From: a virus
Reading direction: 5' to 3' (one strand)
Length of the DNA stretch: 29,621 nt
IMG/VR virus record: IMGVR_UViG_3300004457_000341
Span: 1-29,621 of that record
Below, one piece after another: positions 1 through 29,621 of this stretch (positions are counted from its first letter, which is position 1; each line of letters begins with the position of its first letter). The notes under the pieces are model-generated. The model did no database searches and was not told the DNA's origin. It saw only the letters and a list, made by a program, of their open reading frames with translations. The position numbers and the translations under genes are program-made.

Positions 1-22
1 CTAAATGTACCGCCTGTTAATC
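1..22. repeat. Terminal direct repeat, left copy (circular closure)
   Basis: Bases 1-22 are identical to bases 29600-29621. Overlaying them joins two halves of one open reading frame without a shift, so this is an assembly overlap of a circular or circularly permuted genome. It is probably not a biological terminal repeat. Confidence 0.85.
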
Positions 23-1652
23 CTGTAATAGTTGGTGTTGGGTCTGCATCTGTTGGCTCAAAGCTACTTGCAGAATAAGTAAATGCAGCATTGTCTAAAG
101 GTAATTCTGTTACTGTAGAAGTAGCTGAAGTATTTGAACAACCGTTAGAATCTGTACCTGTTACACTATAACCACCAGCAGAATTTACAGTAATTGCCTG
201 AGTTGTTTCTCCACTTGACCATAGATAACTACTTAATCCAGCTGTGGCGGTTAACGTAGTAGAGTTACCAACACAATAAGAAAGAGTTCCTGTAATAGCT
301 ACTGTAGGTGCAGCATTAACAGTTAAAGATTGAATAGAACTATTTGGACAACTTCCATTAGTTACAAAACCAATAACATAAGTTCCAGCAGTAGAAGCAT
401 CTAAATCAACTTCACCAGTAGTAGAATTTATACTTAAACCTGTAGAAGAACTAAAAGTTCCTGTAGCACTCTTAGTAGGTGTTGGGTCAGAAACATTGTC
501 ACAATAAGCACTTGAACTATAAGTAAATGTTGCAGTATCTAAAGCTGTTATAGTTATTGGATTAGTTACTGTTATTGGACAGCTTCCATTAGTAGTATAT
601 ATTACACTATAAGTTCCAGCAGTAGAAGCATTTTTATCTATAACACCGTTAGCATCAATACTCAATCCGCTTGGACTATTAAATGTTCCACTTTGACCAG
701 TTATAGTTGGACTAGTTGTTAGTGAATAAGTACCGTGGTATATTACTACACCAGCGTTTGGCATATAGTAAGTAATTGAATTTAATACGTGAGTGTGTGA
801 CGTTCCGTCTGAACTTACCGCATTAGATGCAGATTCTGTAGTATATAAAGGATAATAACCATCTACAGCTAAAGCACCAGTAGGCATTTGACAATATGAA
901 GCTGCTGAATAAGTTACTGCTGCAGTATCTAAAGGTAATTCTGTTACTGTAGAAGCAGAAGATGTAGCACTACAACCGTTGCTATCTGTTCCTGTTACTG
1001 TATAACTTCCAGCAGTTACATTTATACTTTGTGTAGTTGCTCCTGTAGACCATAAGTAAGTTGAAAGACCAGCTGTTGCAGTTAGTGTTGTAGAAGCACC
1101 AGCACAATAAGTTAAAACACCTGTAATAGCTACTGTAGGTAGAGCGTAAACTGTAACATCTACAGAGTCAGTAGCTGAGCAAGCTCCGTTATATCCTGTT
1201 ACTGTGAAAGTAGTATTAGTTGTAGGATCAACAGTTACACTAGCTGTAGTTTCACCTGTGGACCATAAATAAGTAATAGCACCTGTTGCAGTTAAGACAG
1301 TGTTTTCACCATTACAAATAGCAACGTCAGCACCAGCAGAAACAACAGGAATAGAATCAATACTAATTGATGTAGTAGCAACTGCTGAACTTGGAGCAGT
1401 GTAAGTCACAATATAACTTCCAGGTGTAGTAGCAGATAAATCAACTTGACCAGTAGATGTAGATATAAAAACAAGTCCACTTGTACTAGAAAAAGTTCCT
1501 CCAGCTTCGCCAGTAATACCAGCTATTGGATCTGTTCCATCTTCACAAAATCTAGCAGCACTATATTCAATACGTAAAGCGTCACCACCAGTAGCACCAG
1601 ACGGCATATAAAATAATCCTTTTTTCTTATTTGGGTTGTAAAATATAGCCAT
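1..1652 (-). CDS. Tail fibre/adhesin, 5' part (gene continues at 29621)
   Basis: This is the N-terminal part (about 543 residues) of an 1151-residue protein whose gene runs off the low end and resumes, in the same frame, at 29621. The ATG is at 1652-1650, two bases after the stop of the preceding gene, and the protein begins MAIFYNPNKKKGLFYMPSG. No stop occurs down to base 1. Visible modules in order are: an SprB-like repeat (about 30-85, ending STGQVDLSATTPGSYIVTY); two CHU/Ig-like domains (about 100-240, with YLWSTGET and YLWSTGAT); an SprB-like unit interrupted by an insert with YPLYTTE, SHTHV and YYMPN; another SprB-like unit with TGEVDLDAST; and a further Ig-like domain (YLWSSGETTQ). SprB repeats are known from Flavobacterium gliding adhesins. 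As the last late gene after the tail genes, it is inferred to be the receptor-binding fibre. Its exact position on the virion cannot be read from sequence. Confidence 0.8.
   Translation of the reverse strand, partial: MAIFYNPNKKKGLFYMPSGATGGDALRIEYSAARFCEDGTDPIAGITGEAGGTFSSTSGLVFISTSTGQVDLSATTPGSYIVTYTAPSSAVATTSISIDSIPVVSAGADVAICNGENTVLTATGAITYLWSTGETTASVTVDPTTNTTFTVTGYNGACSATDSVDVTVYALPTVAITGVLTYCAGASTTLTATAGLSTYLWSTGATTQSINVTAGSYTVTGTDSNGCSATSSASTVTELPLDTAAVTYSAASYCQMPTGALAVDGYYPLYTTESASNAVSSDGTSHTHVLNSITYYMPNAGVVIYHGTYSLTTSPTITGQSGTFNSPSGLSIDANGVIDKNASTAGTYSVIYTTNGSCPITVTNPITITALDTATFTYSSSAYCDNVSDPTPTKSATGTFSSSTGLSINSTTGEVDLDASTAGTYVIGFVTNGSCPNSSIQSLTVNAAPTVAITGTLSYCVGNSTTLTATAGLSSYLWSSGETTQAITVNSAGGYSVTGTDSNGCSNTSATSTVTELPLDNAAFTYSASSFEPTDADPTPTITGLTGGTF
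61..1130 (-). repeat. Duplicated Ig-like/SprB segment within the fibre gene
   Basis: Two stretches of the fibre gene, around 75-290 and 905-1130, encode nearly the same module: TTLTATAGLS, YLWS.G.TTQ, VTGTDSNGCS, STVTELPLD, then the start of an SprB-like unit. A 28-bp exact match lies at 94-121 and 928-955, and the flanking DNA stays similar over roughly 200 bp. This points to intragenic duplication. Confidence 0.75.
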
Positions 1653-26371: not shown

Positions 26372-26812
26372 TTACTTTTTTGAGCTAGTACCGTAATAAA
26401 AAGCAAAGATATTTCCAATTACAACACCCTCAACCATACCCATTAAATGGACAAATAATTCATTGTGTAAAACATTTGGAATATATACAACAGAATAAAC
26501 AATAAAAACAAAACAAAACAAGCCAACTACACCAGTCAAATTCATCATCCAATCGTTACCACCAGCCTTAGCTATTTCTACCTCTCTTTTTCTAGCTGAG
26601 TCTCTGTCCTCTACTTCTAGTTTATATAGGTCTACAACTTGGTCGTGTAGTTCTGCTTTTTGCTCTGGTGTTAAATCTGGATCTTTAGAAATAATGTTTT
26701 TCAATATTCCCATTGCTCCGTTTGAAGGTAAAACATCTCCAATCATATCTAGTATTCTAGGAGCTTTTTCTTTTAATAGTTTACCTACTTTAGTGTCTTT
26801 AAGTTTATTCAT
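26372..26812 (-). CDS. Holin-like protein (GTA-holin/3TM type)
   Basis: This 146-residue protein has a soluble N-terminal half with DRDSARKREVEIAKAGGNDW before two membrane helices (about 91-112 and 119-140), ending FAFYYGTSSKK. The D-R-D-S-A-R-x-R-E linker and the paired hydrophobic helices match GTA_holin_3TM-like proteins. It lies directly after the M15 peptidase, with an 8-base overlap, so it is probably the pore that releases the endolysin to the murein. Confidence 0.68.
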   Translation of the reverse strand: MNKLKDTKVGKLLKEKAPRILDMIGDVLPSNGAMGILKNIISKDPDLTPEQKAELHDQVVDLYKLEVEDRDSARKREVEIAKAGGNDWMMNLTGVVGLFCFVFIVYSVVYIPNVLHNELFVHLMGMVEGVVIGNIFAFYYGTSSKK

Positions 26813-27299
26813 AAAACTTATATTTAGTTCTATTGTTTTTGTCTTTGTAAGCTACTAAAATCTTTCCTCTTTGTTTACCGTCTGTATTATAACTAACATG
26901 AACCCAATTAGGATTCTCATCATTTCCAAACTCCCAAATCAATTGATCAAATCTTAAATTGTCTTTTATATAATGAAATACTTCAGAGTTGTTAGGTGCG
27001 TTCATGTGGTCTCTATCTAAATCTATAGCCTGACCTTTGCAATGTTGAGAGGTTGCAACATAAACACCGTTAATAATTTTATGAGCTCCACCTATAGCCT
27101 TGTTTAAAGCCTCTGACCTATACCCACTTGAGATTCCAAAAGGAACATTAAAATGATTTCTAATAGGTTGAAATATGTTTTCAGACATTGACTTCATATT
27201 CTCTATATGTTCTTCAGTAGGTTTGTTTTCAATACCCAATCTAGAAGCTGTTCCACTCTTTAGCATTTCTGAAAGAGTTAAATTTTTACTTAGTTTCAT
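26805..27299 (-). CDS. Endolysin, peptidase M15 family
   Basis: This 164-residue zinc peptidase cleaves peptidoglycan crosslinks at lysis. It has SSGYRSEALNKAIGG, SQHCKGQAIDLD (His86 and Asp93) and NWVHVSY (His134), the three zinc ligands of the M15A (VanY/DD-carboxypeptidase) family. There is no signal peptide, so export depends on a holin. It is flanked by a membrane/coiled-coil protein on the 5' side and the holin-like gene on the 3' side. The length is typical of phage M15 endolysins. Confidence 0.85.
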   Translation of the reverse strand: MKLSKNLTLSEMLKSGTASRLGIENKPTEEHIENMKSMSENIFQPIRNHFNVPFGISSGYRSEALNKAIGGAHKIINGVYVATSQHCKGQAIDLDRDHMNAPNNSEVFHYIKDNLRFDQLIWEFGNDENPNWVHVSYNTDGKQRGKILVAYKDKNNRTKYKFYE

Positions 27300-27612
27300 T
27301 TTTAAATCTTTTAGTTTCTACTTTTTTTTTTGCGTTTGAGATTAATCTGTTTTCCATTTTGACAATCTTAATTTTAAGATGGGTGTTTTCTTTTATAAGT
27401 TCGTCTATTTTTACCTCTAATTGTTCAATTTTATTAGATAATATTTCAACCTGTCTAGCATATAGGTTGTCATCTCTTTCATCTTTCTTTGCTGAAATGT
27501 CTATTTTTTTAGATATTAAGCTCCAAACTTCTTTAATTCCAAAAGCTGAAACAAGAGCAGTTATTCCAATAATTAAACTGTGGTCATCCATCTTTATAGT
27601 TTTTAAATTCAT
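27286..27612 (-). CDS. Membrane-anchored coiled-coil protein (lysis accessory)
   Basis: This 108-residue protein has one N-terminal membrane helix (about 12-32, HSLIIGITALVSAFGIKEVW). A long coiled coil (about 40-90, EILSNKIEQLEVKIDELIKE) and a basic tail follow. Topology and position just before the endolysin suggest an i-spanin-like or holin-accessory protein; no lipobox or o-spanin partner is visible. Met8 (about 27591) is an alternative start. Its start overlaps the 60-residue gene by ATGA. Confidence 0.6.
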   Translation of the reverse strand: MNLKTIKMDDHSLIIGITALVSAFGIKEVWSLISKKIDISAKKDERDDNLYARQVEILSNKIEQLEVKIDELIKENTHLKIKIVKMENRLISNAKKKVETKRFKNETK

Positions 27613-27791
27613 TCTGGTGTTATTCCTAACTCAGCTAATCTTATTATCCAATCTGCTTCATTGTCATATTCTTCAAATATTGGTAAGCCACAACCAAGCA
27701 TATGATTTGCACGATTAAATGCATAATGTATTATACTATTATCTTCATTTCTTCCGATAAACCAAATGTCTATATTAGGTGTTATTCTCAT
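27609..27791 (-). CDS. 60-residue fibre-associated protein
   Basis: This small protein starts MRITPNIDIWFIGRNEDNSI, then IIHYAFNRANHMLGCG and WIIRLAELGITPE. It lies 4 bases after the tail fibre stop. Similar short proteins follow fibre genes in some Bacteroidetes phages (from memory: TPNIDIWF... ending LAELGI). It might be a fibre assembly chaperone or cap. The function is not known. Confidence 0.55.
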   Translation of the reverse strand: MRITPNIDIWFIGRNEDNSIIHYAFNRANHMLGCGLPIFEEYDNEADWIIRLAELGITPE

Positions 27792-27795
27792 ATCT

Positions 27796-29621
27796 TTAAT
27801 TTATTGACCAACTTAATGTTGTAGTTAAATAATCGAAAGCATCTTGAGCATTATTATTAGTCCAAGCAGATGGCCAATTTGCACCATATTTGGCTACGTA
27901 AGTTTGTCCAGAAGCATTATCGCTTGTTCTTGTTCCATCAAATGTTTGACCATTACCTGAGAAATTAACAGTAGAAGGTGAACCGCTATTATTATACACA
28001 GTTACAGCCCATCCTACAATACTATCAGTATAATTTTCTGTTGTTATAATGTTATTAGCCACAAAACAAAAAGAGCCATTAGAAAGATTAATAATGTTCC
28101 AATCGCTTATGTTTTGATTAAAAACACTACTATAGAACATTTGTCCAATATTACTTAAACTGCTCACATCCCAAGAACTTAAATCTTGATTAAAATTAGT
28201 ATTGTTTCTAAACATTCTAAAAGTATCGCTAACTAAAGAAACATCCCAAGCATTATAAGTTCTTTGATTACTTCCAGAGCCTACTGTAACTGATTGTGAA
28301 GTTATCGGCTGATTAAAAGAACTACTAAGAAACATACTATTCATAGTAGTGGCAGAAGATGTGTCCCAATTACTTATTGAACCATTAAAACCACTATTAT
28401 TAAAAGTTTGATACATATTAGTTACTCTTTGTGTATCCCAAGCTAAATATGTTTGTTGATATGCACCTGAACCAATAGTTACCTGAGCGGTGTTTATTGA
28501 ATAATTAAAGTTTGTTGTATTACTAAACATAGCTGAAAAATTAACACTACTTGCACCTGTGTATATTTTCCAATTACTTATATCCTGATTAAATGCTGAT
28601 GCGTAGCTTAACATATTTGAAAAATTAGTAACACCTGAAACATCCCAAGCTAATCTTGTTCCAGTATCTTTAGTATCAATATCTTGATTAAAAGAAGTAC
28701 AATAAATAAACATACTGCTCATACCAGTTACACTTGATGTATCCCAGTTAGATATATTACCATTAAAAGATTGATTATAAAACATACTGCTCATACCAGT
28801 TACACTTGATGTATCCCAAGAGTTTAAATTTCTATTAAATGCTCCTTGTGACCTGCCATAACAACTAAACATAGAGTTAAAATTTGTTGCTCCTGAAGTA
28901 TTCCAATTAGATATATCACCATTAAAAAGTTCAGACCTCATAAACATTTGCTCAAAATTTAAAGAACCTCCGTTAAATGTCCAATTAAAATTAACACCAG
29001 AAAGAGTTCCAGTTAAAGAACCGCAGTTATAAAATGCGTTAGAAAAGTTTGTACAATTAGTTAAATCTGGTGTATCTGTTGCACTTACATCTAAATTGCT
29101 ACAACTGTAAAACATTCTAAAGAAAGTAGAAAATTCTATATCACCCCATTGAGGCACATCTAATAAATCTGCTTTACTGCCACCACTTACAAAAGTTAAA
29201 GCTGTAAAAGGTCCTGTATCACTTTCAGCTCCAATAGAAACTATTGGATTTGAAGTTGTTCCACTACCACCTACATTATAGGTATGTGATATACTACCAC
29301 CTGTTTCTGTAGTTGTTGTTCCATCTCCCCAATCTACAGTAAAACTTGAACCTGTTGTAGATGGTATTGTAATTGTTTTTTCAACTCCTGAAGTGACTGA
29401 AAACTGCATTTGAAATGATGAATAAGCAGCAGTTACAGCTAATGAAAAAGTAGATGTATTTGGACAAACACTTGAACCACTTGAAGTAGTATCATAAGTA
29501 ATTGTGTAACTTGCAGCAGTAGAAGCACTTAAATCTATCTCACCAGTAGAACTTCCTGTATTTGTTCCACTATCTACAAACACTAAACCACTACCAGCAC
29601 TAAATGTACCGCCTGTTAATC
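27796..29621 (-). CDS. Tail fibre/adhesin, 3' part (continues from position 1)
   Basis: This is the C-terminal part (about residues 544-1151) of the fibre gene that starts at 1652. The reading frame is open to base 29621 and matches the frame at base 22 when the identical ends are joined. It finishes the SprB-like unit (TGEIDLSASTAASYTITY). A PKD-like domain with WGDGTTTTETG and SHTYNVGG follows at about 615-660. Then come about 12-14 DUF285/BspA-like repeats of roughly 24 residues (FNGNISNWDTSSVTGMSSMF type) at about 700-1060. The last ~80 residues (GWAVTVYNNSG, TYVAKYGANWPSAW) form a non-repetitive cap. DUF285 repeats are known from surface proteins of mycoplasmas and marine flavobacteria and form solenoids. 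No signal peptide or sorting signal is visible, which favours a virion protein over an exported one. A host-surface role is inference. Confidence 0.85.
   Translation of the reverse strand, partial: LTGGTFSAGSGLVFVDSGTNTGSSTGEIDLSASTAASYTITYDTTSSGSSVCPNTSTFSLAVTAAYSSFQMQFSVTSGVEKTITIPSTTGSSFTVDWGDGTTTTETGGSISHTYNVGGSGTTSNPIVSIGAESDTGPFTALTFVSGGSKADLLDVPQWGDIEFSTFFRMFYSCSNLDVSATDTPDLTNCTNFSNAFYNCGSLTGTLSGVNFNWTFNGGSLNFEQMFMRSELFNGDISNWNTSGATNFNSMFSCYGRSQGAFNRNLNSWDTSSVTGMSSMFYNQSFNGNISNWDTSSVTGMSSMFIYCTSFNQDIDTKDTGTRLAWDVSGVTNFSNMLSYASAFNQDISNWKIYTGASSVNFSAMFSNTTNFNYSINTAQVTIGSGAYQQTYLAWDTQRVTNMYQTFNNSGFNGSISNWDTSSATTMNSMFLSSSFNQPITSQSVTVGSGSNQRTYNAWDVSLVSDTFRMFRNNTNFNQDLSSWDVSSLSNIGQMFYSSVFNQNISDWNIINLSNGSFCFVANNIITTENYTDSIVGWAVTVYNNSGSPSTVNFSGNGQTFDGTRTSDNASGQTYVAKYGANWPSAWTNNNAQDAFDYLTTTLSWSIN
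28708..28818 (-). repeat. 39-bp exact repeat, 72-bp period, in DUF285 array
   Basis: Bases 28708-28746 and 28780-28818 are identical (39 bp). The offset is 72 bp, exactly one 24-codon DUF285 repeat, encoding WDTSSVTGMSSMF twice. The identity at DNA level suggests recent repeat expansion by recombination or slippage. Confidence 0.85.
29600..29621. repeat. Terminal direct repeat, right copy (circular closure)
   Basis: This is the same 22 bases as positions 1-22. Removing one copy gives a 29,599-bp circle and an uninterrupted 3456-nt fibre gene (1152 codons including stop). Confidence 0.85.

Follow-up and report, generated by a model that had tools for sequence, protein, structure and literature searches.

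A probable flavophage tail fibre with an exchangeable DUF285 tip and a small gene inherited with it

What kind of protein is encoded across the two ends of this viral record, and does its resemblance to bacterial surface proteins stem from a host or from exchange among phages? The DNA analysed here, which we call the window, comes from the IMG/VR collection of virus records, measures 29,621 b and belongs to a phage whose hosts are probably (marine) flavobacteria. The initial annotation had placed a fibre of 1151 residues at positions 27796-29621. A fibre-like protein of that length is indeed encoded, but these positions, although within its gene, hold only the C-terminal half: on the minus strand, the gene runs from 1652 to 1 and then from 29599 to 27796, split across the contig ends. 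The window begins and ends with one and the same 22-base sequence, which is absent from the rest of it; when the overlap is closed, the two frames fuse in frame into a product of 1151 aa. In two relatives, L137 (859 aa) and L126 (904 aa), an equivalent domain order is read through on a single contig, without interruption at the junction. Both ends of the window fall within the last stalk domain of the fibre, D7, whose first part occupies 1-98 (minus strand; bases 1-22 are the end overlap) and whose remainder occupies 29428-29621 (minus strand; 29600-29621 duplicate bases 1-22). Being nearly identical across different phages, D7 could account for the breaking of the contig there; and since it is the segment most widely common among phages, the assembly is weakest at the window ends.

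The genomic position supports the assignment as a tail fibre. Gene order in the window is portal, 182-aa gene, 155-aa gene, fibre, a 60-aa gene that we call ds60, 108-aa gene, M15 endolysin, 146-aa gene and phosphoesterase (the last assigned by eye). The cultured Nonlabens/Persicivirga phage P12024S is similarly arranged, with a portal, two connector-like genes, a fibre and an M15 endolysin, and its gp10, at the fibre position, carries the annotation 'similar to putative tail fiber protein'; by synteny with gp10, the window protein sits at a flavophage fibre locus, flanked by structural genes on one side and lysis genes on the other. The gp10 proteins of P12024S and P12024L (Inhavirus) also resemble the window fibre, as judged by eye, in finishing with LRR-like repeats and a cap-like '...ADGWTVN' terminus, but the portal is only 31.5% identical, the fibre N-terminus is another one, Pfam finds no DUF285 match and no ds60 was seen. 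Two conserved structural genes lie upstream of the window fibre on the minus strand, coding for 155 aa (1655-2122) and 182 aa (2119-2667). The former is conserved in the phage group of the window, group A, at 79-100% amino acid identity in most relatives and 57-70% in the most distant, and has no match in the other group described below, group B. Downstream, a 108-aa coiled-coil-like protein (27286-27612, minus strand; weak coiled-coil matches) is found after both major tip classes alike.

From N- to C-terminus, the fibre is made up of a short anchor, seven Ig/PKD-type stalk domains, a PKD-like domain, a DUF285 array and a C-terminal cap. The anchor (MAIFYNPNKKKGLFYMPSGATGG; 1572-1652, minus strand) is of the type carried by the group A backbone: its DNA is 88-91% identical in group A relatives, and no counterpart was found in group B. 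Among cultured phages, the N-terminal half of the fibre has no match. Stalk domains D1 to D6 (stalk boundaries were placed by eye) span 99-1571 on the minus strand, together with an inserted 72-aa domain ('YYPLY...SDGTSHTHV...YYMPN', window 717-932) whose presence varies among relatives, in groups A and B alike. The CHU/Ig-like domains that had been proposed here are sustained in part: Pfam matches to Ig_7 ('CHU_C associated') and PKD_6 are sub-threshold, but the stalk finds matches in 119 of 151 Flavobacteriaceae genomes, with identities of up to 60%, the majority of them in proteins about 1000-3500 aa long. The four such host proteins that were sampled carry type IX sorting domains (one below cut-off) with Ig_7, and one of them has SprB repeats. 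SprB-like repeats had also been proposed for the fibre itself, and this assignment is rejected, as PF13573 gave no match at E<=1 on the whole protein or at E<=10 on seven pieces of it.

The kinship with host proteins extends to the distal part, as DUF285 proteins of Flavobacteriaceae join PKD and DUF285 to a Por_Secre_tail or CHU_C domain. Type IX-secreted surface proteins of this family (PKD with DUF285, or Ig_7/SprB) have stalk and tip domain types related to those of the fibre. Unlike them, the phage protein lacks a type IX sorting domain by Pfam, which matches neither Por_Secre_tail nor CHU_C in it, and its N-terminus, MAIFYNPNKKKGLFY, contains no evident signal peptide (by eye); it does not have the hallmarks of a type IX-secreted host adhesin.

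The tip starts with the PKD-like domain (29143-29427, minus strand), whose PKD_4 match in the window fibre (E=0.039) is below threshold but which aligns well across relatives, so that the earlier assignment is retained with this qualification. The array that follows (28057-29142, minus strand) is a predicted solenoid. It was described as about a dozen DUF285/BspA-like repeats of 24 residues, and this is borne out: the match to DUF285 (PF03382) reaches E=5.9e-64 and 213.7 bits against a cut-off of 25, the PARCEL repeat TIGR02167 matches with 42 bits against a cut-off of 30, and about 11-13 W-anchored units are found, depending on the counting mode, with W-to-W distances mostly of 24-26 aa and insertions up to 44. 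Palindromic repeat-coding DNA is a trait of PARCEL elements, with a dyad symmetry that is imperfect and, according to the authors, may decay (PMC2996958). The array DNA contains just two weak, far-apart inverted repeats, and membership in DUF285/PARCEL therefore rests on the protein profile. The last segment, with the stop codon (27796-28056, minus strand), had been taken for a unique C-terminal tip, and turns out to be a cap common to all members of the DUF285 cassette.

An AF2 model of the tip as a single chain is confident, with a pLDDT of 85 and a pTM of 0.83. Comparison with the PDB, by fold or by sequence, returned nothing significant, and the model matches those of viral BspA-family proteins, the best being A0A0F7LBT8 (E=5.7e-25), which is annotated as LamG and stems from an uncultured marine virus. 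Tip length ranges over 255-546 aa. A much longer fibre is seen in L272 (IMGVR_UViG_3300047376_000758): it has at least 1994 aa, contains two WGD motifs of the PKD-like kind and an extended DUF285-type region, and terminates in the shared cap, and a ds60 homologue is present. DUF285 as such is not new to phages: 109 phage records match, and ORF200 of jumbo phage pir03 was earlier annotated as putative PARCEL/DUF285 (PMC7765460). The window fibre shares the repeat family by profile (PF03382, TIGR02167), and the fold by model, with other DUF285/PARCEL proteins including the viral BspA-like ones. It differs from them in bearing the array as a fibre tip on an Ig stalk, in having a dedicated co-gene, and in that no tandem palindromic DNA was found.

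Using the stalk, the DUF285 part, the 182-aa gene (a cassette-neutral bait) and ds60 as baits, we collected 48 distinct complete fibres. Their anchors are of two types, A and B, and the major capsid proteins (MCP) of the two groups are 22-25% identical. Both backbones carry both main tips: group A has 17 LamG and 3 DUF285 tips, group B 20 LamG, 7 DUF285 and 1 other, counts that do not equal prevalences because the DUF285 fibres were partly gathered with DUF285 and ds60 baits. The two classes are mutually exclusive, with LamG and DUF285 together in 0 of 48 fibres. Pfam verified the LamG tip (PF13385, E=3.7e-18). The fibre therefore combines a conserved N-terminal anchor with an exchangeable distal tip, as tail fibres do. 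The single other tip (L124:2943-4811), neither LamG nor DUF285, stands on a group B anchor and is followed by an 80-aa gene.

The genes that follow the fibre differ with the tip. After LamG fibres comes, with few exceptions where the contig extends far enough, a gene of ~450-750 aa and then, in fully read loci, an 83-aa gene. One such locus, L139:12991-15171, has a second gene with three Laminin_G_3 domains and then the 83-aa gene, all between the fibre and lysis genes. After DUF285 fibres comes ds60 directly (27609-27791, minus strand, in the window): each of its 15 homologues comes right after a DUF285-type fibre that ends in the shared cap. Such a small gene, directly downstream and co-inherited with the tip, is what would be looked for in a fibre chaperone. 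The AF2 model of ds60 is confident (pLDDT 90.8), and searches of Pfam, PHROG and PDB gave no match, hence none to known fibre chaperones of the Tfa/gp38 or A5/V22 type. A common origin of ds60 and the 83-aa gene that LamG phages carry was considered and rejected (hhalign probability 0.2).

Tip and backbone do not share one history. The window and L137, both of group A, have 155- and 182-aa proteins that are 95-97% identical but ds60 proteins at 55-58%. With L126, of group B, the pattern is reversed: the 182-aa gene is 28% and the portal 23% identical, yet ds60 reaches 92% and the tip about 67% at the amino acid level. Along the DNA, window and L126 are 48-57% identical over the stalk upstream of D7 and 96-100% within D7 itself; the values are then 57-87% for the solenoid and 84-93% around the cap end and ds60. 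Synonymous divergence follows suit, with a dS of 0.06 in D7, 0.53 in the PKD part and 0.40-0.69 over the PKD, solenoid and cap span. The LamG phage L127 shows a sliding identity to the window of 86-97% in D7, with its peak of 97% there, followed by a fall to about 44%. In a tree of the PKD part, 13 rows form a viral-only clade (support 98/93) with group A and B members intermixed and bacterial rows outside; the tree has few columns and many of its forks are poorly separated. These comparisons show tip and backbone to be incongruent, and indicate that tip, cap and ds60 form one cassette that has moved between distantly related viruses. Because the window and L126, with portals at 23%, share D7 at 96-100% DNA identity, D7 is probably the hinge at which recombination takes place. 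In the window/L126 pair, the sole pair compared for selection, the dN/dS of the tip is 0.39-0.48, with no sign of diversifying selection.

We consider it likely that the protein is a flavophage tail fibre whose distal receptor-binding cassette is exchangeable and swapped by recombination, with ds60 acting as a tip-specific assembly factor or cap. The phage-group-specific anchor would hold a stalk made of a run of Ig/PKD-type domains, and the distal cassette would comprise the PKD domain, the DUF285 solenoid, the cap and then ds60. At the same position, the alternative cassette would consist of a LamG lectin tip, a multi-LamG gene and the 83-aa gene. The simplest reading of the alignments is homologous recombination with one exchange point in D7 and another farther downstream, in the region of the cap, ds60 and the gene after it, repeated over time and presumably also operating between deeply diverged groups. 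The solenoid, with a number of repeats varying between members, may then present the host-binding surface.

An origin from the host is the obvious competitor. The DUF285 module, or the entire fibre architecture, may derive from a flavobacterial surface protein and imitate the host surface, as the initial annotation had suggested in speaking of copied architecture and of modules swapped with host genes. The existence of Flavobacteriaceae proteins with PKD, DUF285 and type IX sorting domains, and of stalk-like repeats at up to 60% identity, speaks for it, and the likeness of stalk and tip domain types to those of host surface proteins is real, but the SprB repeats, which no profile match backs, and the unique tip that formed part of the argument are not supported. 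Against capture stand the identity of the tip to bacterial proteins, at most about 45% vs 52-67% in most of the phage cassette family, the lack of an evident signal peptide and of Por_Secre_tail or CHU_C matches, and the movement of ds60 with the tip among phages. The window tip also lies inside the viral-only clade; with bacterial rows outside it, a fresh host capture of the tip is rejected, and the swapping of modules with host genes finds no backing: the exchange visible in these sequences is between phages, not between phage and host. We regard mimicry or capture as unlikely.

Another reading accepts a virion fibre but lets its DUF285 end attach to particles, algae or mucus, or merely space another receptor-binding protein. 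DUF285/BspA proteins are surface proteins in many organisms, and LamG and Ig domains on virions can act in general adhesion. The syntenic tail-fibre locus, and the fact that the swapped part is the distal one, as in receptor-binding proteins, make this a rather improbable alternative, if a somewhat more serious one than capture. An artefact of assembly, with a DUF285 tip misjoined to a group A stalk through D7, might be suspected from the position of both contig ends in a segment 96-100% identical between different phages and from an end overlap of just 22 bp. However, the independent contig L137 runs unbroken from anchor A through stalk, D7, PKD and DUF285 to ds60, the contig of the window itself connects the tip with downstream genes of the A type, and closing the ends preserves the reading frame; such a chimera is very improbable.

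Exchange of fibre modules, as proposed in our preferred reading, has precedent. In Alteromonas phages A5 and V22, a host-recognition module of tail fibre and chaperone is common to distantly related marine phages (PMC10579305), and here too a distal module is swapped with a small downstream co-gene among such phages. The A5/V22 fibres are homologous variants served by a helical beta-hairpin chaperone (PMC10579305), whereas the tips described here, LamG or DUF285, have unrelated folds and separate small genes. With LamG and DUF285 as alternatives, the theme gains a new version. Within the literature searched, two features are new: flavophage fibres that have an Ig stalk in common end in one or the other of two tip folds unrelated to each other, each accompanied by its small gene, and the switch to the tip lies at a hinge domain that is nearly identical between phages.

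DUF285/PARCEL repeats are very widespread, and the searches above found no solved relative; their place at the exchangeable end of a fibre gives them a testable function, receptor binding. Close relatives that differ mainly in tip class provide a natural experiment for learning which molecules each tip recognises on the surface of marine flavobacteria. D7 marks the apparent site of the exchanges, and the swappable cassette offers a natural handle on how flavophages may change hosts. A bolder version, which we hold only tentatively, is that D7 is a selected hinge, that PKD-DUF285 with ds60 and LamG with the multi-LamG and 83-aa genes circulate as complete and self-sufficient cassettes for host recognition among flavophage families, and that ds60 and the DUF285 solenoid represent a new chaperone/cap family and a new class of receptor-binding fold, respectively.

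The endolysin gene adjoining the cassette also varies among close relatives: it encodes a Peptidase M15 in the window (26805-27299) and in L140, whereas L137 (7645-8058), L139 (15867-16280), L090 and L145 have a 137-aa protein that looks amidase-like by eye.
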